Shown piece by piece: positions 6,385 to 39,247 of a stretch of DNA of 39,247 bases (position 1 is the first letter of the stretch; every line of letters begins with the position of its first letter). The notes below the pieces were generated by a model. It was given only the letters and a program-made list of their open reading frames with translations, ran no database searches and was not told the DNA's origin. A program made the translations under genes and the position numbers. This DNA is from a bacterium (GTDB lineage: Bacteria; Bacillota_I; Bacilli_A; Acholeplasmatales; JAEDCM01). Where the stretch lies: assembly GCA_024694145.1 (NCBI GenBank), contig JAILKD010000051.1, positions 1 to 39,247 on the forward strand, read 5' to 3'.

Positions 6385-7338
6385 ATGAATAAACCATTTT
6401 ATTTAAAAAAAGGGTCAACTATAGGAATTATCGCTCCTTCATTTGGATTATTTGATGAGAAACATTTAAATAAATATAAAGAAGCAAAAGAGTTTTTTAT
6501 AAGTAACGGCTTTAAAGTTGTAGAAGGCAAATACATTTATACAGAAAACTTATTTAGCGATACAAAAGCTAATTTGCGTGCTAAAGAATTTATGGATATG
6601 TATTTAGATCCAAATATTGATATGTTATTATCTGTTTGTGGTGGAGAATTATTAATGGAATTACTTGAATATATTGATTTTGATAGAATAAAGAATGCAA
6701 AAACTAAATATATATTAGGTTATTCGGATAATACAAATCTAACATTCTTACTAACAACACTATGTAACATAGAATCAATTTATGGGATAAATGCAACCGC
6801 ATTTGCAAACAATAAACTCAAATATGTTAATGATACGTTTGAATTGTTAAAAGGAAATAAATTTGAATTTGATTCATATGATTTTTTTGAAAATGAATTA
6901 GAAGAATTTGTTAACAAAGTAGAATATATTGGTAATGTTGATATGAAAGGAATGCTACTTGGTGGTTGCTTAGAAGTGCTTAAAAACATATGTGGCACTA
7001 AATATGATAAAGTAAGTGAATTCACTAAAAATAATAAAGACATAATTTTTTATTTTGATGTATGTGAATCAAATCCGCTTCAAGTTTATCAAACACTATG
7101 GCAACTAAAAAATGCTAATTGGTTTAATAATATTAAAGGTTTTGTGTTTGGCAGAACTATTAATGATAATGAATTATTTAGCTATAAAGATGCTATTTAT
7201 AGAGCATTATCAGATATAACTACAAATATTGTAATAAACGCTGATTTAGGCCATATTCATCCAATTATGCCATATATAAATGGTAGAATTTGTCATATAG
7301 TAGTAAATAAAGGAAAAGCAAAATTTATTTATGAATGA
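6385..7338 (+). CDS. LD-carboxypeptidase, peptidase family S66 (LdcA/MccF-like)
   Basis: S66 enzymes cut the L,D-peptide bond of murein tetrapeptides during wall recycling; MccF relatives inactivate microcin C. The Ser-Glu-His triad of the family is visible: GYSDNT (Ser114), DVCESN (Glu228) and LGHIHP (His290). The N-terminus (PFYLKKGSTIGIIAPS) and length (317 aa) fit the family, so the ATG at 6385 is right, although no clear Shine-Dalgarno precedes it and it begins only 7 bases after the rpoZ terminator. The last 8 bases overlap uvrC. The choice between LdcA and an MccF-like role cannot be made here. It ends in TGA, which shows that TGA is a stop in this genome. Confidence 0.85.
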   Translation: MNKPFYLKKGSTIGIIAPSFGLFDEKHLNKYKEAKEFFISNGFKVVEGKYIYTENLFSDTKANLRAKEFMDMYLDPNIDMLLSVCGGELLMELLEYIDFDRIKNAKTKYILGYSDNTNLTFLLTTLCNIESIYGINATAFANNKLKYVNDTFELLKGNKFEFDSYDFFENELEEFVNKVEYIGNVDMKGMLLGGCLEVLKNICGTKYDKVSEFTKNNKDIIFYFDVCESNPLQVYQTLWQLKNANWFNNIKGFVFGRTINDNELFSYKDAIYRALSDITTNIVINADLGHIHPIMPYINGRICHIVVNKGKAKFIYE

Positions 7339-9070
7339 TATTATAAAAAATAAGCTTAAACTACTACCTGAAAAACCAGGTTGCTATATGATGAAAAATA
7401 ATGATGGATTAATCATATATGTAGGTAAAGCTAAAATACTTAAAAACAGAGTCAAAAGTTATTTCACAGGTAGTCATAATGCAAAAACAACACTTCTTGT
7501 TAGTGAAATATGTGACTTTGAATTTATAATGACAAATTCTAATTTAGAAGCTTATTTATTAGAAATCAATCTAATAAAAAAACATAGACCTAAATATAAT
7601 ATTGATTTAATGGATGATAAAACATATCCTTATATTTTACTTACTAAAGAGGATAATCCTAGATTATTAGTAGTAAGAAATACAAAAATAAAAGGAGATT
7701 TATTTGGACCATATCCAAATGTTACTGCCGCAAGAAAGACAGTAGATTTACTTAATTCACTTTATCCATTTAGGAAGTGTAATAAGATAGGTAAAAAAGA
7801 ATGCTTGTATTATCATATAAATAATTGTCTTGCTCCATGTATTAAGGAAGTTAATAAGGATGAATATAGTGAATATATTAAGAAAACAAAGAGTTTCTTA
7901 AATGGTGATACATCATTTGCTTTAAATGAATTAAAGACAAAAATGGATAATTATTCAAAAGAATTACAATTTGAAAAAGCAACGGAATGTCGTGATTTAA
8001 TTAATAGTATTAATGAAACTACAGAGCGTCAAAAAATAAGCATTAATGATAATGTCGATAGAGATGTATTTAATTATTATAATGATGATAAAAACATATG
8101 TATTTATACATTATTTATGAGGCAAGGAAGAATTGTTCAAAATGATTGTATAGTTTTAGAATTAATTGATGAACCGCTTGAAATGTTTGTCAATTATTTA
8201 ATAGAATTCTATGATAAATCATTAAAACCAAAAGAAATAATGCTACCAGTTGAAATAGAAGATTTAGCTAGCTTATTAGATATTAAAATATTTGTTCCAA
8301 AAATTGGTGAGAAAAAACAAATAATAGATATGGCATATGATAATGCAAAAAATACACTTCTTACTAAAGATGAACTATATAAATCAAAATTAGAACGTAG
8401 TATTAATGCCTTAAATGAACTTGCTATTTTGCTTAATATACATTACCCTAGACGAATTGAAATGTTTGATAACTCAAATACATTTGGAAGTTATGCAGTT
8501 AGCGCAATGGTAGTATATATTGATGGAAAAAAAGAACCTAGTGAATATAGAAAATATAAGGTAGAATTTGATGGAATTGATGACTATCAAACTACACGTG
8601 AAATAATATATAGAAGATATTATAGAGTATTAATGGAAGATTTAGAAAGACCTAATTTAATCATTATGGACGGAGGAAAAGGTCATATGGATGCCGTTTT
8701 AAGCGTTACTAATGATCTAAATTTAGATATACCTGTAATAGGCTTAAAGAAAAATAGACACCATAAGACTGATAGAATAATCTATAATGATAAAGAGTAT
8801 CCTATAAGTGGTGCACTATATCAATTATTAAGTAATATGCAAGAAGAAGTTCACCGCTTTGCGATAACTTTCCATAGGAATTTAAGAGCTAAAGGTATGT
8901 TTGAATCAAAACTTGATAATATTAAAGGTTTGGGTGAAAAATCTATTAGAAAATTAATAGATGAATTTAAAACTATAGAGAATATAGAAAATGCAAGTAT
9001 TGAAGATTTTGAAAGAATAGGATTAAAAAGATTTTATAATGATGTAATGAATGCTTTAAAAAATAAATAA
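7331..9070 (+). CDS. uvrC: excinuclease ABC subunit C
   Basis: UvrC makes both incisions around a lesion bound by UvrB in nucleotide excision repair. Domains in order: GIY-YIG endonuclease at the N-terminus (GCYMM, IIYVGKAK, R40), the cysteine-bearing segment near 136-160, a UVR helix pair that contacts UvrB (about 197-226, ELQFEKATECRDLI), the RNase H-like C-terminal nuclease (IDGKKEPSEYRKYK, IMDGGKGH), and a helix-hairpin-helix end (NIKGLGEKSIRKLIDEF). At 579 aa it is of normal length. Its ATG overlaps the end of the LD-carboxypeptidase gene, implying coupled translation. uvrA and uvrB are not in the window. Confidence 0.96.
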   Translation: MNDIIKNKLKLLPEKPGCYMMKNNDGLIIYVGKAKILKNRVKSYFTGSHNAKTTLLVSEICDFEFIMTNSNLEAYLLEINLIKKHRPKYNIDLMDDKTYPYILLTKEDNPRLLVVRNTKIKGDLFGPYPNVTAARKTVDLLNSLYPFRKCNKIGKKECLYYHINNCLAPCIKEVNKDEYSEYIKKTKSFLNGDTSFALNELKTKMDNYSKELQFEKATECRDLINSINETTERQKISINDNVDRDVFNYYNDDKNICIYTLFMRQGRIVQNDCIVLELIDEPLEMFVNYLIEFYDKSLKPKEIMLPVEIEDLASLLDIKIFVPKIGEKKQIIDMAYDNAKNTLLTKDELYKSKLERSINALNELAILLNIHYPRRIEMFDNSNTFGSYAVSAMVVYIDGKKEPSEYRKYKVEFDGIDDYQTTREIIYRRYYRVLMEDLERPNLIIMDGGKGHMDAVLSVTNDLNLDIPVIGLKKNRHHKTDRIIYNDKEYPISGALYQLLSNMQEEVHRFAITFHRNLRAKGMFESKLDNIKGLGEKSIRKLIDEFKTIENIENASIEDFERIGLKRFYNDVMNALKNK

Positions 9071-9099: not shown

Positions 9100-9942
9100 A
9101 TGATAAAAATAGGATCAATTCATAGTCTTGATCTAAATAATAGATTATTTACTATTAAATGTAAGAATAAAATTGAATATTTTTATCTACAAAGTGGACT
9201 TGTTAAAAAGTTCCAAAGATATCTAGATAAAAGAGTATTTGTAGAGTTTGATTGTAATGGAGATAAAGACACTCATAATAATATAAGTGCTAGAAAAGTT
9301 AATTACTTCATTAAAATCTTTAAAAATACACCTCATAATAGAGAAATATTTTATGACCTATCTATTATAAGAAGTGGGGTAAAACAATTACTAACAAATC
9401 AAGAAAACATAATGTTTTTAGACTTAGAAATGACTATGCAATCATTTGATTCACCAAAAGACTTTAAATCAGAAATAATTCAAGCAGGTTATTTAATAAC
9501 TGATAAGTTTGGTAATGATTTAGAAAGAAAGAATTATTATATTAAACCAACTCTTTTTCCTAAATTGAACAAGAGAACTTTGAAGTTTTTAAGTTTAAAT
9601 GAAGAAGATGTAAATAATGGTGTTAGTTTTAATGAGTTCTATAATATATTTAAAGATACACTAAATAAATATAATAACCCATCTATTATTGTTTGGGGCA
9701 AAAATGATGTTTTAGCTTTAAAAGCATGTTATGAAATAAATGAACTAGAACCACTTAAACCTAATTATATTAATTTACTTCAAGTTCATAAAAATTATTT
9801 CAATCTAAAAAATGATTTAGGATTATTTGATGCATATAAAAAGTATACTGGTGCAGATTTAAATCAAGAACATGATGCACTTGTTGATGCATTTATGACA
9901 AAAAATGTATTCTTTGAATTTAAAAAAGAAGCTATCAGATAA
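9100..9942 (+). CDS. DEDDh-type 3'-5' exonuclease with N-terminal extension
   Basis: The C-terminal 180 residues form a DnaQ/KapD-like exonuclease of the DEDDh class. Metal residues are seen at FLDLEM (D108, E110), WGKNDVLAL (D203) and EHDALVDA (H258 with D263). The first 75 residues or so are a small beta-rich region with no known motif, possibly an OB-like or adaptor domain. KapD-type proteins have been linked to sporulation-kinase control, and others trim RNA ends; substrate here is unknown. I choose the ATG at 9100, using GGTGAT as ribosome site; an in-frame ATG at 9088 overlaps that site. It follows uvrC by 29 bases and is probably cotranscribed. Confidence 0.8.
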   Translation: MIKIGSIHSLDLNNRLFTIKCKNKIEYFYLQSGLVKKFQRYLDKRVFVEFDCNGDKDTHNNISARKVNYFIKIFKNTPHNREIFYDLSIIRSGVKQLLTNQENIMFLDLEMTMQSFDSPKDFKSEIIQAGYLITDKFGNDLERKNYYIKPTLFPKLNKRTLKFLSLNEEDVNNGVSFNEFYNIFKDTLNKYNNPSIIVWGKNDVLALKACYEINELEPLKPNYINLLQVHKNYFNLKNDLGLFDAYKKYTGADLNQEHDALVDAFMTKNVFFEFKKEAIR

Positions 9943-30333: not shown

Positions 30334-30724
30334 GGGGGTGTTTATGGATTCGCCATGCTACGAAAAAGTATGCTTGCATGTCGTGGTTAAGCACGTTAAA
30401 ACTCGAGGTTTCAAATAACCGGAAAAACAAATTTATTCGCACGTTCAAACAATATGAACGTTGCATTCGCTTGCTAATTTACCCAACGAGGTATAGAGCG
30501 ATATCACTTTAACAGCCTTTCCTGCACTGTTAATCTGATACTTCATCCAGCAGGGATATACCTTTAGGTGCTATTCTAACCGAAAAGAAGAATTTAATAG
30601 AATGTAGGTATTATTTGGTTCGTTAGATTACCTGGTAGTATTGAATTTTAAAATGTAACTAAGCATGTAGGTAGCATATGGATTTTTAGTGTGTACAGGG
30701 GTTCGACTCCCCTCACCTCCACCA
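30334..30724 (+). ncRNA. ssrA: transfer-messenger RNA (tmRNA, SsrA)
   Basis: tmRNA rescues stalled ribosomes and adds a degradation tag. The 5' end GGGGGTG (30334-30340) pairs with CACCTCC (30714-30720) to form the acceptor stem. The 5' part has the GGATTCG D-loop motif; the 3' part has GGGGTTCGACTCCCC as T-arm and an encoded ACCA end. The tag reading frame runs 30421-30474 with TAA at 30475, giving GKTNLFARSNNMNVAFAC. It starts like the Bacillus subtilis tag (GKTN) and shares NVA-x-A near the end, but is four residues longer and ends in Cys rather than Ala-Ala. The gene begins four bases after smpB, so transcription is from within or before smpB. Its last 13 bases plus one recur at 31959-31971. 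Confidence 0.95.
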
Positions 30725-30725
30725 A
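30713..30725 (+). repeat. att-like direct repeat, copy 1 (tmRNA 3' end)
   Basis: TCACCTCCACCAA covers the end of the tmRNA acceptor stem, the CCA and one base more. An identical 13-mer lies at 31959-31971. The 3' ends of tmRNA and tRNA genes are favoured integration targets. Confidence 0.6.
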
Positions 30726-30733
30726 CAGTACTC

Positions 30734-30765
30734 AACGACCAACTTTGGTCGTTTATTATTTTATC
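30734..30765 (+). terminator. intrinsic terminator after ssrA
   Basis: AACGACC (30734-30740) and GGTCGTT (30747-30753) pair around AACTTT, then an AT-rich T-containing stretch. Confidence 0.8.
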
Positions 30766-30814
30766 AAAAAGAGGATGGCTAAAGCATAATAATATATGTA
30801 AAATCATACCTGTG

Positions 30815-30823
30815 TGGTATAAT
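30815..30823 (+). promoter_or_regulatory. extended -10 promoter for the 237-aa gene
   Basis: TGGTATAAT (hexamer 30818-30823) lies 31 bases before the ATG at 30855, after the ssrA terminator. Confidence 0.5.
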
Positions 30824-30854
30824 ATTGACATAGATATTCGGTGGTGATAATTGT

Positions 30855-31568
30855 ATGTATGTAATAGTTTTAAAAGATGATGGTTCATATTATATTACTA
30901 AGGCTGTAGCTATTTATTATGATGGATGGGAAACAGAATACTTTCTTTTAAATGAAGATGAGAATTTTGAAAGAGTTTTTGAGTATTCACAAAACTCAGG
31001 AGAAAAAATAGAAAAAAGGGTATTTCTTTATGATGAAGATATTGATGATGATGACTTTATGTCAGATGGCTCATATGAGGGGTATTCACGATTTGTTAAT
31101 GATAAAAAGATGCTAGATAGAATTAGGAATGGTGAAAAAAACATTTTTGATGATGGAACAATGTGGGCATATAGAGGCTTTATTACTGATTCAATTGATA
31201 ATAATATAGTTGATGATGAGCATTCATGCAAAGTTTTATATAATTTTGCTGGTGGCTTTCATGATGCTGTTGTAAAAGAGTACTACTATGACGAAAATAA
31301 TAATTCTTTAAAAATCATACTAGAAGGAGTTTGGGGAGTTGAAAAACTAACGTTGACTTTTGAGGAAGTTGTGAAGTACAACATAGAAGAATATTATGAT
31401 ACAAATTACTTTTTAAATGGTAGCTTATTCTACGAAGATAATAATGTTTGTTTTGTAAACGATGAATGCAATTGTAAGAAAGACATTTGTGAGGAATGGA
31501 CATTTGTATATTCTAAACGTCTAAAATATGATATTATATTCGAAAAACATAAAACAAAGGAGTTATAA
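30855..31568 (+). CDS. acidic protein of unknown function (237 aa), possible ssrA-island cargo
   Basis: I do not recognise this protein. It is 237 aa, soluble and very acidic, with no signal peptide or membrane span. The N-terminal 70 residues look like a beta-rich module (YVIVLKDDGSYYITKAVAIYYDGWE), followed by a DEDIDDDD acidic stretch. The C-terminal half has FHDAVVKEYYYDE, then LKIILEGVWGVEKLTLTFEEV, a strand pattern reminiscent of small immunity-like or stress proteins, which is only a resemblance. A Cys-rich end (CFVNDECNCKKDICEEW) could bind metal. The ATG has GGTGGTGAT upstream. The 46-aa gene starts two bases after its stop. It lies between the att-like repeats. Confidence 0.6.
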   Translation: MYVIVLKDDGSYYITKAVAIYYDGWETEYFLLNEDENFERVFEYSQNSGEKIEKRVFLYDEDIDDDDFMSDGSYEGYSRFVNDKKMLDRIRNGEKNIFDDGTMWAYRGFITDSIDNNIVDDEHSCKVLYNFAGGFHDAVVKEYYYDENNNSLKIILEGVWGVEKLTLTFEEVVKYNIEEYYDTNYFLNGSLFYEDNNVCFVNDECNCKKDICEEWTFVYSKRLKYDIIFEKHKTKEL

Positions 31569-31570
31569 TT

Positions 31571-31711
31571 ATGACCGAAAAAGAAAAGAAGGATTTAGAA
31601 AGGATTACAAAACCTATTGTAGATGATTCAAATAGTGCAAGATTTACAACATATTGTCCTAGAACAAAAGAGGATAATGAAACAAAACCGAATAGAAAAG
31701 AAAAAAAGTAA
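31571..31711 (+). CDS. small hydrophilic protein (46 aa)
   Basis: An ATG at 31571 behind AAAGGAG (inside the end of the previous gene) opens a 46-codon frame ending in TAA at 31709-31711. The product starts MTEKEKKDLERITKPIVDDS and ends NRKEKK; it is highly charged, with no membrane span. It contains one FTTYCPRTKED segment. No family is recognised. Ribosome site and two-base spacing to the 237-aa gene suggest translational coupling and a two-gene unit. Confidence 0.5.
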   Translation: MTEKEKKDLERITKPIVDDSNSARFTTYCPRTKEDNETKPNRKEKK

Positions 31712-31958
31712 AACAAAATGAGCGTGAAAAGTAGTGTGCCAATATTAATTAGAATGCCATATTAGATATTCAATATGTGATATTAAAAAGATAAAAAAAT
31801 ATTTTCAAAAGATGGGATTGCATAGTTGAACCCCGTTCCTTTTGAAAGAATAACCCCGTTTTAGATAAGAAAATGGGGCAAACTATGGTGGAAGTTTGTA
31901 TAAACTGGAGAATTTGATACAAAATCATCAATTTGACGTGACTGTCGACAAGAAGGAG

Positions 31959-31971
31959 TCACCTCCACCAA
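31959..31971 (+). repeat. att-like direct repeat, copy 2
   Basis: An exact copy of the 13 bases at the tmRNA 3' end (30713-30725). The sequence before it (GACAAGAAGGAG) does not match the tmRNA T-arm, so identity stops at the acceptor stem. Confidence 0.6.
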
Positions 31972-31982
31972 TAAAAAATGAT

Positions 31983-32005
31983 AGAGGTTTTAAAACCTCT
32001 TTTTT
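31983..32005 (+). terminator. intrinsic terminator downstream of the distal repeat
   Basis: AGAGGTTTT and AAAACCTCT form a perfect 9-bp palindromic stem followed by T residues. It lies 12 bases after the second repeat, where the terminator of an original ssrA copy would be expected. Confidence 0.75.
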
Positions 32006-32009
32006 GTTA

Positions 32010-32024
32010 GCAACAACCTGTTGC
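32010..32024 (+). promoter_or_regulatory. possible operator of the XRE regulator
   Basis: GCAACA, a 3-base spacer and TGTTGC make a perfect inverted repeat directly abutting the -35 of the XRE gene. This is a typical autoregulatory position; binding is inference. Confidence 0.4.
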
Positions 32025-32053
32025 GTGACACTACACGATTATAAATGTATAAT
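32025..32053 (+). promoter_or_regulatory. promoter for the XRE/zinc-ribbon gene
   Basis: GTGACA (32025-32030), 17 bases, TATAAT (32048-32053), 20 bases before the ATG at 32073. Confidence 0.65.
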
Positions 32054-32072
32054 GATGTTAGAGGTGAAGAAG

Positions 32073-32828
32073 ATGGAAACTAAAGATGTTTTATATGAAT
32101 TAAGAACTAAAAATGGGTTATCACAAGATGAATTAGCTGAAAAAGTATTTGTAACTAGACAAGCAGTATCACGTTGGGAAAATGGTGATACAGTTCCAAA
32201 TACTGAAACATTAAAACTATTATCAGATATATTTAATGTCTCAATTAATACACTTTTAGGATCTCCAAGAAAATTGATATGTCAATGTTGTGGTATGCCA
32301 CTAAATGATGAAATAATAGGCCATGATAGCAATGGAAGCTTGAATGAGGATTATTGTAAATGGTGTTATGCTGATGGTACATACACATATAACGATATGG
32401 ATTCACTTATAAGTGTTTGTATTCCACATATGGTTAAAGCTGGCTTTGAAGAAAATCAAGCTCGTGAATATATGAAACAAATGTTACCTAATTTAAAATA
32501 TTGGAAGAACCACGATTATTTAAGTGATGGTGGTAAATTTGAAGCTTTTAAAAAAGAACTTATAACAGAAATAAATGACTTAAATATTAAAGGTATGCCT
32601 AAGGTAGAAAGCTTAAGTGCATTAGTAGGCTCTTATGTAAATTTAGCTTATCCACTACCTAGTGGAATAAAAGCTCAATTTTTAAATGATCAAACTACAT
32701 ATTTAGGTACACAGCTTGAAAGTGATAAATTCTGTTATGGAGTTGTTGCTAATGTTGATTTTATCTTAATATGTACATACGAAGAAGATGGCAATAACCC
32801 TAATTTATTACTATTTAAAAAAAGATAA
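32073..32828 (+). CDS. XRE-family regulator with putative zinc-ribbon domain
   Basis: Residues 5-62 form a Cro/XRE helix-turn-helix (LRTKNGLSQDELAEKVFVTRQ, AVSRWENGDTVPN). Residues 68-150 match the putative zinc-ribbon domain often fused to it: CQCCGMPL (C70, C73), YCKWCYADG (C95, C98), FEENQAREYMKQMLPNLKYW. The last 60 residues or so (from MPKVESL) are a third part I cannot place. Such proteins are probably metal- or stress-responsive repressors; the ligand is unknown. The ATG at 32073 has GAGGTGAAG before it. A frame back to 31896 runs through the repeat, terminator and promoter and is not coding. It is the last AT-rich gene before the composition change. Confidence 0.82.
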   Translation: METKDVLYELRTKNGLSQDELAEKVFVTRQAVSRWENGDTVPNTETLKLLSDIFNVSINTLLGSPRKLICQCCGMPLNDEIIGHDSNGSLNEDYCKWCYADGTYTYNDMDSLISVCIPHMVKAGFEENQAREYMKQMLPNLKYWKNHDYLSDGGKFEAFKKELITEINDLNIKGMPKVESLSALVGSYVNLAYPLPSGIKAQFLNDQTTYLGTQLESDKFCYGVVANVDFILICTYEEDGNNPNLLLFKKR

Positions 32829-33033
32829 AGATAAAATAGCTGCTTCAATAAGTGTATGGGCATAACAGTGCCTAAGCGTATCCAGGTATATTCATGAATC
32901 AATGTTCTCAACCTTCCTGGAGCAAACTGAATACTGCAGCTATGCTGCATGATATGTTTTCGGTGACAAAAACACGTTATGTTCTGTCGATGCTAGCCTT
33001 CCTTATGGTTCACTTGAAAACTTTAAATCTAGT
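32829..33033. other. junction region between AT-rich and more GC-rich DNA
   Basis: 205 bases without a credible gene. Short inverted repeats occur: GGCA/TGCC around TAACAG (32860-32873), TGCAGC TAT GCTGCA (32935-32949) and the palindrome ATTCATGAAT. Base composition rises through this stretch. I see no transposase or IR pair that explains the change. Confidence 0.5.
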
Positions 33034-34323
33034 TTATCGGTTAAACAAAATGTCAACATTGAAGATGTTATCTTTTACAGTGAGAGTCACTTTACCATCA
33101 TATTTAGAGACAATATTTTTCATGGATTTGACACCGAAGCCATGGGAGCTTTTGTCTTGTTTGTTAGTGACGGGAAGATTGTGTTCCATGATGACTTGAC
33201 CAACGAAAGGATTCTCAATATGAATAGAAGTATATTTCTCGGTTCCTTTGACAATGAAGGTGATGTATTTGGCTTTCCCATCTTCTACTTTACTTGTCGC
33301 TTCAATCGCATTAGATAAAGCATTACCAACGAGAGAATATAGATCATATACATCTAAAAACGAAAGGCGTGAAGCGTCCACCATGGTATTGAATTCGATG
33401 TGATTTCGATAACAAATATTTCCATTTTCCGTCAATAGTACATTGAGTGCTTCATTCTCTGTTTTGAATTGATTTTCAAACATGAAGACACTATCAGAGA
33501 TATCTTTGATATCTTTTTCTTGAAGATTGAGTTTCCCATTCAAGAGAGCGTTTAAGCGATGCTTTAAATCATGATAAGTTGCCATCGTAGATTTGGAGAT
33601 CTCATAATGTTTAATATTTTGTGAATATAGAGTTTGAATGATCTCTCCTTCTTTTTCTGTCTTTTCTTGTTTTAGCATAATAAAGATAATAAATAAAACA
33701 AGCAAACTAGAAATGATGGAATAGATCTTAGATATCATAGAATGGAATTTTAAATCCGCATTGCCAATAACAACCGTAAGAGAAGAAAGAATGATATCGA
33801 CTAAAACCACAAAACCTGTGATCATCAAGGTTTTCGGTGGGTTTTTAAAGACGGAATAAAGATGATTTTTCTTAAAAACTAGAGCGAAGATAGTGAATAG
33901 AGTCAAATGAACTAGGATATAGACAATAAGGTATAGATAGTTATTATATAAAGTCACTCCCTCTCCAAAGATTGCGTCCAAAGTCAAACTGATGGTAGCG
34001 GAGATGGAGTGATGCAATAAATAGCTTGTGGCCGCGAAGAACAATCCGTTGAACCATGTGATTTTCACGCATGCTAGAATGGTCAAATAAGTGAAGAAGA
34101 GAATGCTAAGATACATGAAGATACAATATAGATAATCGACAAAATAATTATCAATCCTCACTAAAGGAATAAAGTAAGTGAGAGTTGCAAAAACAAGAAA
34201 ACTAAGAATGACTCTCAGAAGATAATTTTTCCTTCTCTCAAGGAAATAAGCGATAAATTGTCCGTAACAAAAACACTCGATAAAAATTAATAAATTCACA
34301 TTGTTAACAAAAGTAAAGATCAT
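33034..34323 (-). CDS. AgrC-like sensor histidine kinase (GHKL type, HPK10)
   Basis: A peptide-sensor-type kinase of 429 aa. Six or so membrane spans fill residues 5-217. The dimerisation segment has the phospho-acceptor TYHDLKHRLNALL (H251), as in AgrC. The GHKL ATPase follows with LVGNALSNAIEA (N334, N338) and a G-box HGFGVKSM (about 394-401). The D-box is weak: VTLTVKDNIFNV closes the protein without the usual extended tail. Its ATG overlaps the end of the response-regulator gene by four bases (ATGA), so the pair is cotranslated. No agrB/agrD-like genes are visible, so the signal is unknown. Codon use is more GC-rich than the left part of the window. Confidence 0.88.
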   Translation of the reverse strand: MIFTFVNNVNLLIFIECFCYGQFIAYFLERRKNYLLRVILSFLVFATLTYFIPLVRIDNYFVDYLYCIFMYLSILFFTYLTILACVKITWFNGLFFAATSYLLHHSISATISLTLDAIFGEGVTLYNNYLYLIVYILVHLTLFTIFALVFKKNHLYSVFKNPPKTLMITGFVVLVDIILSSLTVVIGNADLKFHSMISKIYSIISSLLVLFIIFIMLKQEKTEKEGEIIQTLYSQNIKHYEISKSTMATYHDLKHRLNALLNGKLNLQEKDIKDISDSVFMFENQFKTENEALNVLLTENGNICYRNHIEFNTMVDASRLSFLDVYDLYSLVGNALSNAIEATSKVEDGKAKYITFIVKGTEKYTSIHIENPFVGQVIMEHNLPVTNKQDKSSHGFGVKSMKNIVSKYDGKVTLTVKDNIFNVDILFNR

Positions 34324-35030
34324 AAAGAACCTCCTAAGAAGCGAGAGAAGTCAGCCATGAGTTCCTTCTTTCGATTTCTGGAAATCAATACCACTTCATC
34401 GTTATCTAAAGTCAGATCATACTTGTGAATCCCTTTGACATGATTGAGATTGACAAGATAACAATAATTACAACGAGAAAACTGACAATTATCCATCTTA
34501 TCAATGATTTCTTTTAGAGCTCCTCTCGTGGTAAAGTTTCCCTTGGTCGTATGATAAATCACATTGTGTTTCTGCACTTCGATATAGAGAATATCGGAAT
34601 GCTTAAACACATTCTTTCCATTACTTAAAGAGATTATCTTATCATTCTGTACTTTTTCATTGGCCACACGGATAATCTTGTTCATCTTAGAAAAGAAGGT
34701 GGAATCATTCAAAGGTTTTAAGATGTAATCTAAAGCGTTGACTTCATAACCAGAGATCGCATATTGAGAGAGATTTGTCAAAAAGATGATGATGACATCT
34801 TTATCCTTTTGTCTCACTTTCTTCGACAATTCCATGCCGTTGATATCCGGTAATTCAATATCAAAGAAAATGACATGGAAATGCTTTTTATCCTGACAAA
34901 GATATTCCTTTCCACACGTAAATAGAGTCAAAGAAAGGTTTAAGTGATTATCTTGACAATAACGGTGAAAGAGAGAGGTGAAGCGCTCTGCGTCGTTTTT
35001 ATCATCCTCAATCAAAGCAAATTTAATCAT
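34320..35030 (-). CDS. AgrA/LytR-type response regulator (receiver plus LytTR)
   Basis: The 236-aa protein has an N-terminal receiver domain with the acidic pair EDD (8-10), the phospho-acceptor FFDIELPD (D57) and LTNLSQYAISGYEVNALDYILKPL (T/K switch region), then a LytTR DNA-binding domain (about 130-236) with LYIEVQKHNVIYHTTKG, FSRCNYCYLVNLNHVKGI and LISRNRKKELMADFSRFL. LytTR regulators bind direct repeats upstream of target promoters. The partner kinase overlaps its 3' end. It lies 82 bases beyond the beta-glucosidase gene and a terminator, so it probably has its own promoter in that gap (not resolved). Confidence 0.9.
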   Translation of the reverse strand: MIKFALIEDDKNDAERFTSLFHRYCQDNHLNLSLTLFTCGKEYLCQDKKHFHVIFFDIELPDINGMELSKKVRQKDKDVIIIFLTNLSQYAISGYEVNALDYILKPLNDSTFFSKMNKIIRVANEKVQNDKIISLSNGKNVFKHSDILYIEVQKHNVIYHTTKGNFTTRGALKEIIDKMDNCQFSRCNYCYLVNLNHVKGIHKYDLTLDNDEVVLISRNRKKELMADFSRFLGGSL

Positions 35031-35067
35031 GGTCGAAGTCCTCTATAATTAAAATAACAAAAAAGCA

Positions 35068-35101
35068 GAAAATAGGAATAGAGTTTTCTATTCCTATTTT
35101 C
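35068..35101 (-). terminator. intrinsic terminator of the beta-glucosidase gene
   Basis: A 14-bp perfect stem (35068-35081 with 35088-35101) around a 6-base loop; on the minus strand it is followed by GCTTTTTTG. Strong signal, so the response-regulator pair is likely a separate transcript. Confidence 0.88.
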
Positions 35102-35112
35102 GCTATTGAATA

Positions 35113-38100
35113 CTAATTTTCTTCCTTTTGTCTAAGGCGGAACACGCTATAAACCACCAAAGCGACAATTCCCGCACCTACAACACCATCAATGACGTAT
35201 AACCAGATACGCCAAGGAGAAATCTTGTAGCTGACGATAGCGCCAGGAGCAGCACCTTGCATCAAGTTGGAGTTAGCGTAGGCAAAGGCGATATCCTTCA
35301 TAGAGTGTCTGATGCAGTGATAGTAAGTGGCAGTAGACTTATCAGCTAAAGTGACCGTCTGGAAGTCCATGGCTTTCTCGGTGACCATGAAGTGCATTCT
35401 CACATCACATCCAGCTCTTAATAACTTATCGACATTACCAGGCATAGCTTCTAAGCCCATATCGGTAGAGAAGACACCTTGGAAGCCCCATTCTCCACGA
35501 GTCATATTCGTGATCAAATCATAGCTAGCGGCTTGCCAATCAGTACCGATGTGAGTGGCAGCACCCATTAAACCAGAGCAACCTCTGACCACTTTCTTAC
35601 CGATAGTTCCCTTATCATCAGAGATGTACTTCAAAGTTTTTCTAGATTCCTTCAAAGCGATTTCGAAAGCCTTCATATCCGTTTCACGATAAGCTTGTTC
35701 TGTACACCAAGCGAGCATGGAAGTACAAACACCCTCATAAGAGTGCCATCCAAAGTGTTTGAGATAGCAAACCAACCCTTTTTCTTCCGCACCAGAGACT
35801 GTTTTAGCACAAATCTTACCAGTCAAGACAGGATCTTCAGAATAATATTCGAAGTTTCTGCCGTTGAAAGGAGAACGATGCAAGTTGGCGGCAGGGCCAT
35901 ACCAGCCGTTGATGGCGATATCTTTTTGAAGAGCTTCTTCACCGATGGCTAAGCCATATTCATAGGCTAAATCGACATTGTAAGTGGCAGCAACAAGAGG
36001 TTCAGCGCAATAGGCACAAGTGTCAAATCCACCACCAGTACCAGTCAATCCTAAGCCTTGTGGGCCATCATGATCAGCAGTAACGGGTTTGCCGATAGAG
36101 GCGACTTCGGAAGTACCAAAGGCTCTTAACACCATCGGTAAAGCTTCATCATAATCGAGCTGATCTAACAATTCTTCATAACGAGGATCGTAGTAATCCG
36201 CACCTCTCAAATCAATCAAGCCCAAGCCGTTATCCTGCTTCATCTTAGGCATCTCACTCTTCTTGACAAGAGAAGTATCCGTTTCCCCAAGTTTAGGATC
36301 AGTCTTGTAATCAAAGCCGCGCATTTCCTTTAAATATTGCTCTGCTAAGTTTCTGTTCTCGCTAGGAGCAGTAGGGAAGGTGTTCTTCCAGTCTGCTCTA
36401 GTGAAGATGGTAGCTTCATTGCCTTCCATATAATCAGAGATCTGATCAAAGTGGTTGGTAGCAGCCACAAATTTGGCATCCTTATCCAAGAGCGCTTTGG
36501 CAGGGAATGGAAGAGGATTTCCATTCTCATCCCATTGAGCCTGAGCATTGATTTCGGATTTTCTCGGATTGGCATTGGTATAGAACTCCGTATTAGCAAT
36601 ATGAGCGACTTTGCTATCGAAAGTTTCATGAGAGTTCTTACCTAAAGTGATAGTGTAATCCCCATTTTCAAGGACATAACATCCCTTCGTGCCATCGTTG
36701 TTATCATGGCGGTAAGAGTAGGAGGCCATCTCTTCTTTCAAGAATTCTAATTTGACGTTCTTCTTCTCTCCGGCTTTGACTTCGACTTTGTCAAAAGCGA
36801 TTAAGTTCTTTGTCGCTTTTTCAATGTGTAAGTCTTTATCAAACTGTGTATAAGGAGCAGTGTAATAAAGCTGAACCACTTCCTTACCATCTCTAGCACC
36901 CTTATTGGAGACTTCTACTTCCACAGAAATCTTATCTCCACCATCGGAGAAGTTAACAATCTTCTGCTCAAAGGTGGTGTAGGATAAACCGTATCCAAAA
37001 GGATAATTGACCGCGCCCTTAGTCTTTAAAGAACCATCCGCATTCAATTCTCCATACACGAAGGAAGGATCCATCTCAGAAGCAGTCTCATAATAACGGT
37101 ATCCGTAATAGATACCTTCTTCATATTCGTAGAAATAGACACCATGTTGGCCATTCCACAAGGATAAATCTAAGGTGTTAGCATATTGGTGATCACCAAA
37201 GTTGATGATGGAAGGATTCTTCAAGATATCATTGTCCCAGATATCCACGGTTCTACCACTAGGGTTAACCTCACCGGCTAAGATATCTCCTAAAGAATCA
37301 AAGCCCATAGAACCAGGTCCAGAAATCCACAAAATGGCATCCGCCTCATATTCTCCCTTCATCAATTCTTCGATTTCCATGATGTTGGAACTGTTGATGA
37401 TGGCGACCACATTCTTACATTTCTGCTTAGCTAATTTTAAGGTTTCTTTTTCTGTGGTAGTCAAGGCTAAAGCATGTCTTGTTCCATCAGAATATTCTTT
37501 GTCGTATAAGTTACCGCCTTCACCGGCATTTCTACCGATATAGACGATAGCAGTAGAATTAGAGGTGTTCTCTAATAAACCATCATAAACACTGGTTTCA
37601 AAGTTATAGATGGTTGGATCAGCTCCGTTAAAGGCACCCTCACCAATAGTAGCACCACCATCTTTGATTTCTTTGACCGGGGTAGCACTATCTAATAATT
37701 TATTAGAGACTGCTGGGTTGACTTGGAAGTGTTTCGCTAATCCTTCCACAGAAGTGACGATATAGTCTTTGCTAGTATCCACAGCACCAGAACCAGTTCC
37801 TCCAAAGACAGGATCTCTATAACGATATCCAAAAGGAACGACATTGCTCTGCTTGGCTAACGGTAAAGTATTATTAGAGTTTTTCAATAATACAATACCT
37901 TCATCTGTGATCTTCTTGGTCAGTCTAGCGGCGTTCATCAAAGAGCCGTTTTCTCCCATGGCAGAAGGACAGACTTGTTCATAATAATTCTTGTCCCAAC
38001 TCTCTGTACCTTCGATATTGATGACTTCTCTTTCACCCCTAGCAACATAGGTGTCTAAGGTCTTAGACCAGATTTCCGCTTCGACATTTGCGACAATCAT

Positions 38101-38175
38101 CGCTGCACTTGTCACTGCAATGATTGGAAATGTGATCAAAGCAAATGTCTTTTTACGCATTTTCGCTTTTGCCAT
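35113..38175 (-). CDS. membrane-anchored GH3 beta-glucosidase with permuted domains
   Basis: The 1020-aa glycoside hydrolase of family 3 likely releases terminal beta-linked glucose. Order is reversed from most GH3 enzymes. The alpha/beta C-domain comes first (about 82-400, DEGIVLLKNSNNTLPL, AGEGGN with a candidate acid/base Glu219, YPFGYGLSYTTF), then a fibronectin-III-like domain (about 415-480). The TIM-barrel domain follows (about 690-960) with TADHDGPQGLG, YLKHFGWHSYEG and VFSTDMG, whose Asp905 aligns with the nucleophile. A basic N-terminus with one span (10-30) and a C-terminal span (about 985-1010) before RLRQKEEN put both ends inside and the enzyme outside. AGGAGG precedes the ATG. 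Permuted GH3 enzymes are known in rumen Bacillota. Substrate cannot be predicted precisely. Confidence 0.9.
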   Translation of the reverse strand: MAKAKMRKKTFALITFPIIAVTSAAMIVANVEAEIWSKTLDTYVARGEREVINIEGTESWDKNYYEQVCPSAMGENGSLMNAARLTKKITDEGIVLLKNSNNTLPLAKQSNVVPFGYRYRDPVFGGTGSGAVDTSKDYIVTSVEGLAKHFQVNPAVSNKLLDSATPVKEIKDGGATIGEGAFNGADPTIYNFETSVYDGLLENTSNSTAIVYIGRNAGEGGNLYDKEYSDGTRHALALTTTEKETLKLAKQKCKNVVAIINSSNIMEIEELMKGEYEADAILWISGPGSMGFDSLGDILAGEVNPSGRTVDIWDNDILKNPSIINFGDHQYANTLDLSLWNGQHGVYFYEYEEGIYYGYRYYETASEMDPSFVYGELNADGSLKTKGAVNYPFGYGLSYTTFEQKIVNFSDGGDKISVEVEVSNKGARDGKEVVQLYYTAPYTQFDKDLHIEKATKNLIAFDKVEVKAGEKKNVKLEFLKEEMASYSYRHDNNDGTKGCYVLENGDYTITLGKNSHETFDSKVAHIANTEFYTNANPRKSEINAQAQWDENGNPLPFPAKALLDKDAKFVAATNHFDQISDYMEGNEATIFTRADWKNTFPTAPSENRNLAEQYLKEMRGFDYKTDPKLGETDTSLVKKSEMPKMKQDNGLGLIDLRGADYYDPRYEELLDQLDYDEALPMVLRAFGTSEVASIGKPVTADHDGPQGLGLTGTGGGFDTCAYCAEPLVAATYNVDLAYEYGLAIGEEALQKDIAINGWYGPAANLHRSPFNGRNFEYYSEDPVLTGKICAKTVSGAEEKGLVCYLKHFGWHSYEGVCTSMLAWCTEQAYRETDMKAFEIALKESRKTLKYISDDKGTIGKKVVRGCSGLMGAATHIGTDWQAASYDLITNMTRGEWGFQGVFSTDMGLEAMPGNVDKLLRAGCDVRMHFMVTEKAMDFQTVTLADKSTATYYHCIRHSMKDIAFAYANSNLMQGAAPGAIVSYKISPWRIWLYVIDGVVGAGIVALVVYSVFRLRQKEEN

Positions 38176-38527
38176 ATTTACCTCCTAAGCATTTAGCTGA
38201 GAAAGTTTTACCACACCCCATTTTTTTCTGACATACCTGTTGCATAAGGTGTCATGAAAGTGGCACACTCTGTAAGCGCTTAAATGTTGATTTAACTATG
38301 ATGAAGACAGAAAAAAATCCTATAAAAAAGCCTCTCCCGAAGATGAAGTGAACCCCTCTAATTGGACCAAGGAGTAGGTCAAGGATGAAAGAGGTCTTAT
38401 GATTCTAAGTGGTGACCTTCTATTGGTGGTTTCGCAAAAATATCTCAATGTTACGAAATAAAGGAAAAAGAAGAAAGAAAGATAACGTAAAACATAGGTA
38501 ATGAAAATAAAAGGAGCTTTTAACAAA
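38176..38527. other. divergent intergenic region between GH3 and SGNH genes
   Basis: 352 bases with no gene I accept. It carries a cre/LacI-like palindrome (38271-38284) and a sequence resembling an IS3-type terminal repeat (from 38349). Promoters for the two divergent genes must lie here, but no hexamer pair is convincing in either direction. Confidence 0.6.
38271..38284 (+). promoter_or_regulatory. cre-like / LacI-family operator
   Basis: TGTAAGCGCTTAAA contains the perfect palindrome TAAGCGCTTA and fits the catabolite-responsive element consensus apart from the final CA. It lies 96 bases upstream of the GH3 start. CcpA or a local LacI-type repressor could act here; no such regulator is in view. 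Confidence 0.5.
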
Positions 38528-39247
38528 ATGAAACCTCGTTTCTTCTTATTGCCTTTGCTTGTCGCAATTGTCTTGCCTTCTTGTGGTTCTACGACTTCTT
38601 CAACTTCAAGTTCAACAATCCCTGATTCATCCGTAACAGTGATTGAAAAGACCTATCAACCACAATACACCATTCCCAGTGATGATGATCTAGATACTTC
38701 CTTAAGTGCAAATGCCAATGATTTTGACGCTAAGAAAGTAACCAAGGTAGAAAGTCCTTTGAACGGTAAATATTTCTATTGGTTAGGTTCTTCGGTCACT
38801 TATGGAGCTTCTTCTAATTCCGTCTCGATGGTTGAATATCTTTCCGCTCTTACGGGTGCTACCTGCAAGAAGGACGCTATCAGCGGCACCACCCTTCTTT
38901 GTGATATGAAAAGCGATAATACAGGTGTGAAATCCTATGTCAATCGTCTCAAGACCAGCAAGGTCTTTGATGAGAATCAATATCTGGATGGTTTTATCTG
39001 TCAGATTTCGACCAACGATTGCACCTCTGATAGACTTTCAAAACGTGGGGAAATGACTGCAAGTGATGTCTTTGATATGGAACAGTTTGATATCTCAACT
39101 ACCTTAGGTGCTGTCGAATATATCATCTCTTATGTGACTACCACCTGGGATTGTCCAGTCTACTTCTATTCTGGTTCCTATTTTTCCGATGGTACCAATT
39201 CTGCCAAACGTGAAAACGGCAATCCTAAAGGAAGTGATTATGCTACT
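38528..39247 (+). CDS. SGNH/GDSL-hydrolase-like lipoprotein (3' end beyond window)
   Basis: The frame is open from the ATG at 38528 to the window end (240 codons, incomplete). The N-terminus is a lipoprotein signal: MKPRF, a hydrophobic core, then the lipobox LPSC with Cys19, followed by a Ser/Thr-rich linker (GSTTSSTSSS). The soluble part has YWLGSSVTYG, which matches block I of SGNH hydrolases (nucleophile Ser in GSS), and CQISTNDCT, which matches the G-x-ND block III. Such enzymes are esterases, often deacetylating glycans, which would fit the neighbouring beta-glucosidase. GGAG lies 11 bases before the ATG. Catalytic Asp-His near the C-terminus are beyond the window. Confidence 0.75.
   Translation, partial: MKPRFFLLPLLVAIVLPSCGSTTSSTSSSTIPDSSVTVIEKTYQPQYTIPSDDDLDTSLSANANDFDAKKVTKVESPLNGKYFYWLGSSVTYGASSNSVSMVEYLSALTGATCKKDAISGTTLLCDMKSDNTGVKSYVNRLKTSKVFDENQYLDGFICQISTNDCTSDRLSKRGEMTASDVFDMEQFDISTTLGAVEYIISYVTTTWDCPVYFYSGSYFSDGTNSAKRENGNPKGSDYAT

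Follow-up and report, generated by a model that had tools for sequence, protein, structure and literature searches.

The 13 nucleotides that close the tmRNA (transfer-messenger RNA) gene ssrA in a rumen Acholeplasmatales genome recur 1246 bp further on (start to start), and we consider, at a probability of roughly 0.55, that this second copy is a 3′ fragment of ssrA displaced by an old tyrosine-recombinase integration whose integrase has since been lost. The stretch analyzed (the window) is the complete 39,247-bp contig C10 of the draft genome G000 (1.57 Mb, 84% complete, 101 contigs), in which rnr and smpB lie upstream of ssrA. A sequence-only reading of the window had reported that the 13-mer TCACCTCCACCAA occurs at the 3′ end of ssrA and again downstream, followed there by a terminator, and both observations proved exact. 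The first copy consists of the final 12 nt of ssrA plus one A; in tmRNA terms it spans the last base of the T stem, the 7 bases on the 3′ side of the acceptor stem, ACCA and an additional A. On the same strand, the second copy starts at the junction of the T stem and the acceptor stem and extends through CCA in the orientation of ssrA. Identity between the copies ends at both edges of the 13-mer, with unrelated flanks, and a terminator follows each copy within 9-11 nt.

To judge whether such a repeat could arise by chance, we counted exact copies of the 13-mer in the whole draft genome and found two, both at the ssrA locus. With order 1-4 Markov models trained on the genome, 5e-6 to 5e-5 copies would be expected within the 1246 nt of the interval; counting any 13-mer from the ssrA tail over 8.5 kb downstream, the expectation was 2e-4 to 1e-3. 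In 70 other ssrA loci from Bacilli and other bacteria, for which up to 6 kb of downstream DNA, and often less, was covered, the longest downstream match to the ssrA tail was 9 nt, versus 13 nt here. A background match is therefore very improbable, though a single short match examined post hoc never rules out luck. If luck it was, then TCACCTCC, which makes up most of the 13-mer and complements a perfect Shine-Dalgarno sequence with kin strings in coding DNA, happened to match at one of many inspected places. The genome does hold seven one-mismatch relatives of the 13-mer elsewhere; no tRNA or tmRNA gene was seen beside them in the 3-kb loci fetched (six of the seven were read), and at least some are coding, one example, as read from its letters, being the reverse complement of GGDEF codons. 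The identity is also not one base longer than 13, and integrase, integrase relic and empty site were all unfound. However, strings of this kind form no background in the window, where TCACCTCC has no other occurrence and its complement GGAGGTGA has none, the expected number of copies in the interval is minute, and orientation, extent and position are all as integration predicts. The reservation in the sequence-only reading that 13 bases might coincide by accident is retained despite the low computed expectation, as an unlikely explanation that still deserves some weight. The near-matches were also considered as further att sites and rejected, since none of those read adjoins a tRNA or tmRNA gene (tDNA) and coding sequence accounts for at least some of them. 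Likewise, we rejected a Shine-Dalgarno role for the second 13-mer read on the reverse strand, since no real open reading frame (ORF) begins with a start codon at a suitable distance from it.

The extent of the repeat favors a crossover at the T/acceptor junction, because it matches one of the tDNA crossover subsites of Islander, the J subsite (PMC4383910). Nor is 13 bp too short, since for tyrosine integrases identity blocks of 10 bp and of 15 bp have been documented, at least 7 bp being typical (PMC10111431). In the scenario that we propose, a tyrosine recombinase would have crossed over at this junction of ssrA, and the incoming element would have supplied an acceptor strand and CCA as replacements, keeping ssrA whole while the original end of the gene, with the terminator, was shifted downstream. 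The uninterrupted site would have read ...GACTCCCCTCACCTCCACCAATAAAAAATGATAGAGG..., and the circular junction of the excised form would read ...GACAAGAAGGAGTCACCTCCACCAACAGTACTC.... The present interval would be the remnant of a once larger element, consisting of an operon of two orphan cargo genes and a non-coding stretch of about 250 bp. Insertion is plausible because a rare repeat placed like a displaced tDNA fragment brackets an orphan gene pair, and because the 237-aa gene of that pair is missing in the genus mates; from these direct observations we infer recombination as the source of the repeat, a tyrosine integrase as the enzyme, a formerly larger element and its decay.

Analysis of the interval bore out the earlier description of two unrecognized genes and no integrase (Table 1). 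The two genes, encoding proteins of 237 and 46 aa, probably form one operon. The 237-aa protein had no significant match in Pfam, PHROG (a single, insignificant hit), PADLOC or NCBIfam, no relevant match in PDB and no homologue in phage, plasmid or viral-contig collections, and its structure predicted without an alignment was unusable (predicted local distance difference test score, pLDDT, 41). A homologue search that covered 100 relatives and 392 phylum genomes gave only a C-terminal match in one other genome of the class (G435; 31% over aa 126-229) and a 25-aa N-terminal relic in G096. The C-terminal half carries a GGFHDA..KE..Y-like motif shared with one distant Bacilli protein. No family was found for the 46-aa ORF in the libraries searched. 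The non-coding remainder contains AACCCCGTT twice, 23 nt apart, and arm-site-like repeats in the reconstructed circle amounted to two 9-mers, versus a mean of 1.2 in shuffled sequence, which is not an informative excess. Matches of 52 nt to Acinetobacter plasmid DNA were judged to be due to chance.

Table 1. Features of the ssrA locus and its right flank (window coordinates)
Feature	Position	Strand	Basis or remark
ssrA (tmRNA)	30334..30724	+	ARAGORN and Rfam RF00023 (145.5 bits), both same placement
First copy of the 13-mer (putative attL)	30713..30725	+	Sequence match
Intrinsic terminator	30734..30753	+	Terminator analysis; 9 nt past ssrA
Orphan 237-aa gene, first in two-gene operon (probable)	30855..31568	+	ORF; no family match
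Orphan 46-aa hydrophilic ORF	31571..31711	+	ORF; own AAAGGAG Shine-Dalgarno sequence; 2 bases past the 237-aa gene
About 250 bp without recognizable genes or informative homologues	31712..31958		DNA search: short low-complexity matches only
Second copy of the 13-mer (putative attR or displaced ssrA 3′ fragment)	31959..31971	+	Exact match
Terminator	31983..32000		Terminator analysis; 7-bp stem, T tails on both strands; 11 nt past second copy
Palindrome GCAACA-ACC-TGTTGC	32010..32024		Conserved or nearly so upstream of all six HTH/zinc-ribbon genes compared
HTH_3 + Zn_ribbon_2 regulator, first gene right of the repeat	32073..32828	+	Domain matches
Right flank to contig end	32840..39247	-	Functions named from sequence
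Histidine-kinase-like gene	33034-34323	-	Named from sequence
Response-regulator-like gene	34320-35030	-	Named from sequence
GH3-like protein	35113-38175	-	Named from sequence

The comparison set included two genus mates, G001 and G002, both metagenome-assembled genomes (labels: Acholeplasmatales, yak rumen / bacterium RUI155). The same two genes in all relatives, the outcome that the sequence-only reading had named as fatal to an insertion, did not occur: neither genus mate has the 237-aa gene, nor does any other genome of the order that was searched. The interval thus varies within the genus, matching the prediction of an insertion. The supporting outcome, a relative lacking the gene in which a single 13-mer runs directly into the 31983 terminator, did not appear either. 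In G001, the genus mate with a long contig, ssrA is 90% identical and has the same 13-mer once, but about 25 bp past it comes a ttcA-like gene, followed by a 146-aa gene, TetR and p211. The ssrA gene of G002 has TCATCTCCACCA as its end; an unrelated sequence resembling a terminator comes next, and the contig stops about 200 bp later. The terminus of this contig (L032:6882-6973) repeats part of ssrA in inverted and diverged (84%) form, which is probably an assembly artefact.

Several results weigh against an insertion. Neither an integrase nor an integrase relic was detected in the interval (30726-32072) by family-library or sequence searches, and the base composition of the interval is host-like. 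No phage, plasmid or viral homologue was found, and among viral contigs none had the second 13-mer together with its left arm (GACAAGAAGGAG); a scan of such contigs for the ssrA tail was uninformative, since most of those recovered have tmRNA or tRNA arrays of their own. An empty site joining ssrA to the DNA with the 31983 terminator (31972-32045), the uninterrupted attB, joined exactly at the repeat, on which a TIGER-type test relies, was found in neither G001 nor G002 and in none of 160 genomes of the order, although its absence is weak evidence because the set holds only two genus mates. The DNA to the right of the second repeat is not demonstrably ancestral chromosome. Finally, the 1246-bp spacing falls below the 2-200 kb length range of Islander (PMC4383910). 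The idea of integration at the tmRNA 3′ end stands in so far as the repeat is unlikely to be random and its position, orientation and extent fit, and lacks the integrase, relic, mobile homologue and empty site that would have completed it.

Comparison with known systems gave a similarly divided picture. As in Islander, the window fragment is a 3′ fragment that lies downstream of the gene on the same strand, reaches the gene end and starts at the J subsite (PMC4383910). It also overlaps no conserved domain: the interval genes are without Pfam match, and in the ORF overlapping the fragment, the HTH (helix-turn-helix) domain begins after 32073. By contrast, the tyrosine integrase that Islander places inside or overlapping an island was not found at 30726-32072. 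ssrA is an established island target, and the ssrA islands of Dehalococcoides include members without an integration module (n=15), a feature shared with the window locus; their integrase is a serine recombinase (PMC3146451). Whereas those islands have a 20-bp repeat, a T-loop crossover, a conserved motif beside every repeat and numerous tandem copies in different strains (PMC3146451), the window locus has a single 13-bp repeat at the T/acceptor junction, spans 1.25 kb and is seen in one genome. Typical members of the Dehalococcoides type have the 20-bp repeat with its conserved motif and a serine-recombinase integration module; the repeat here is of 13 bp, in one copy, and no recombinase was recognized in the interval. 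If real, the window element belongs, in decayed or minimal form, to a well-known class, integrase-less ssrA islands having already been described.

For the suggestion in the sequence-only reading that the island was mobilized in trans, we found no evidence: the only integrase element of the genome that could be placed beside a tDNA sits at tRNA-Cys. This small tyrosine-integrase element abuts tRNA-Cys on contigs C75 (L223:2492-2721) and C1 (L221). It resembles the ssrA interval in being tDNA-adjacent in the same genome, but has its own tyrosine integrase abutting the tRNA and another target, and a DNA search within the genome revealed no similarity between the two. The presence of a tDNA-adjacent tyrosine integrase in G000 counts in favor of a past integration at ssrA. 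The integrases of G000 were rejected as helpers for ssrA, that of C1 sitting at tRNA-Cys and that of C49 having no tDNA on its contig. That a cassette of about 1.2 kb without integrase, carrying the two-gene orphan operon, is moved in trans from one ssrA 3′ end to another among rumen Acholeplasmatales is very improbable in our estimation. C75 and C1 share an exact 141-nt overlap, which suggests an assembly-graph branch.

To the right of the second repeat, the first gene encodes the HTH/zinc-ribbon regulator. The palindrome in front of it, just upstream of a near-consensus promoter (GTGACA-17-TATAAT), is a probable autoregulatory operator. The protein shares 87% amino-acid identity with copies from another family in the order, and since so similar a protein occurs there, the gene moves horizontally; one of the copies in that family lies about 300 bp downstream of a tRNA-Cys. 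From about 32.83 kb onwards (32830-39247), GC content rises sharply, with GC3 (GC at third codon positions) at 0.36-0.42 versus 0.09-0.21 before, so that by composition the more than 6 kb past the HTH gene is a foreign block or a contig chimera. The GH3-like protein had only partial relatives, 30-37% identical, in the ten genomes searched. Another contig of G000, C38, starts (C38:1-280, L090) inside a second HTH/zinc-ribbon copy with 98% DNA identity to the gene of the other family, an identity that marks this copy, on present evidence, as a recent transfer. C38 continues with TetR and p211, two genes that G001 has a few genes past ssrA. In the simplest reading, the stretch from ssrA to TetR was remodelled in this lineage, the 13-mer bounding its first segment alone.

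This arrangement raises the question of whether the 13-mer is instead an internal att-like junction, or the edge, of a larger variable region, tandem or accreted, that runs from ssrA through the HTH gene and the kinase, regulator and GH3 block to beyond the contig end. Such a region would account for the DNA search of 30726-38500 against the genus mates, which returned nothing but HTH-gene homologues in G001 and G002, for the GC3 step, and for the presence of the post-ssrA TetR and p211 genes of G001 on a contig that starts in the second HTH/zinc-ribbon copy. However, no further 13-mer lies rightward in the window and no integrase was recognized there, C38 and C10 have no identical overlap by which the far edge could be joined, and the right block may itself be an assembly chimera; we thus view a larger region as improbable. 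Least probable of all, and only marginally worth considering, is that the downstream arrangement is partly a chimera of assembly or binning and that the apparent bracketing corresponds to no real locus. The fragmentation and incompleteness of the draft, the GC step and the alternative continuation of the 87%-identical HTH copy offered by C38 could all be so explained, but the second 13-mer lies about 850 bp to the left of the break in composition, and ssrA, both repeats and the HTH gene are all host-like in composition, indicating that the interval itself is probably joined correctly.

If the displaced-fragment explanation is true, the locus is a further case in which ssrA serves as a hotspot for insertions, from a lineage of rumen Acholeplasmatales that has been poorly studied, and the orphan two-gene operon is island cargo. 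General understanding would be unchanged, as ssrA islands, including those without integrase, are already documented; the practical value is a lead to sites of horizontally acquired genes in these genomes.

Two side observations were made in the course of the comparison. A leader sequence (L093:6604-6990; L094 at ~7320-7630 and ~9440-9670; L095:4764-4927) lies downstream of tRNA-Cys in G057; the same leader precedes HTH/zinc-ribbon genes in G057 and G053, and is also found at a second place in G053 and in front of a truncated 237-aa-gene relic in G096. It is possibly a mobile or hotspot sequence. In addition, the predicted tmRNA tag peptides (window 30334-30724 and L031/L032/L033) have the C-terminus FAC or AFC, for example GKTNLFARSNNMNVAFAC, versus the usual LAA.
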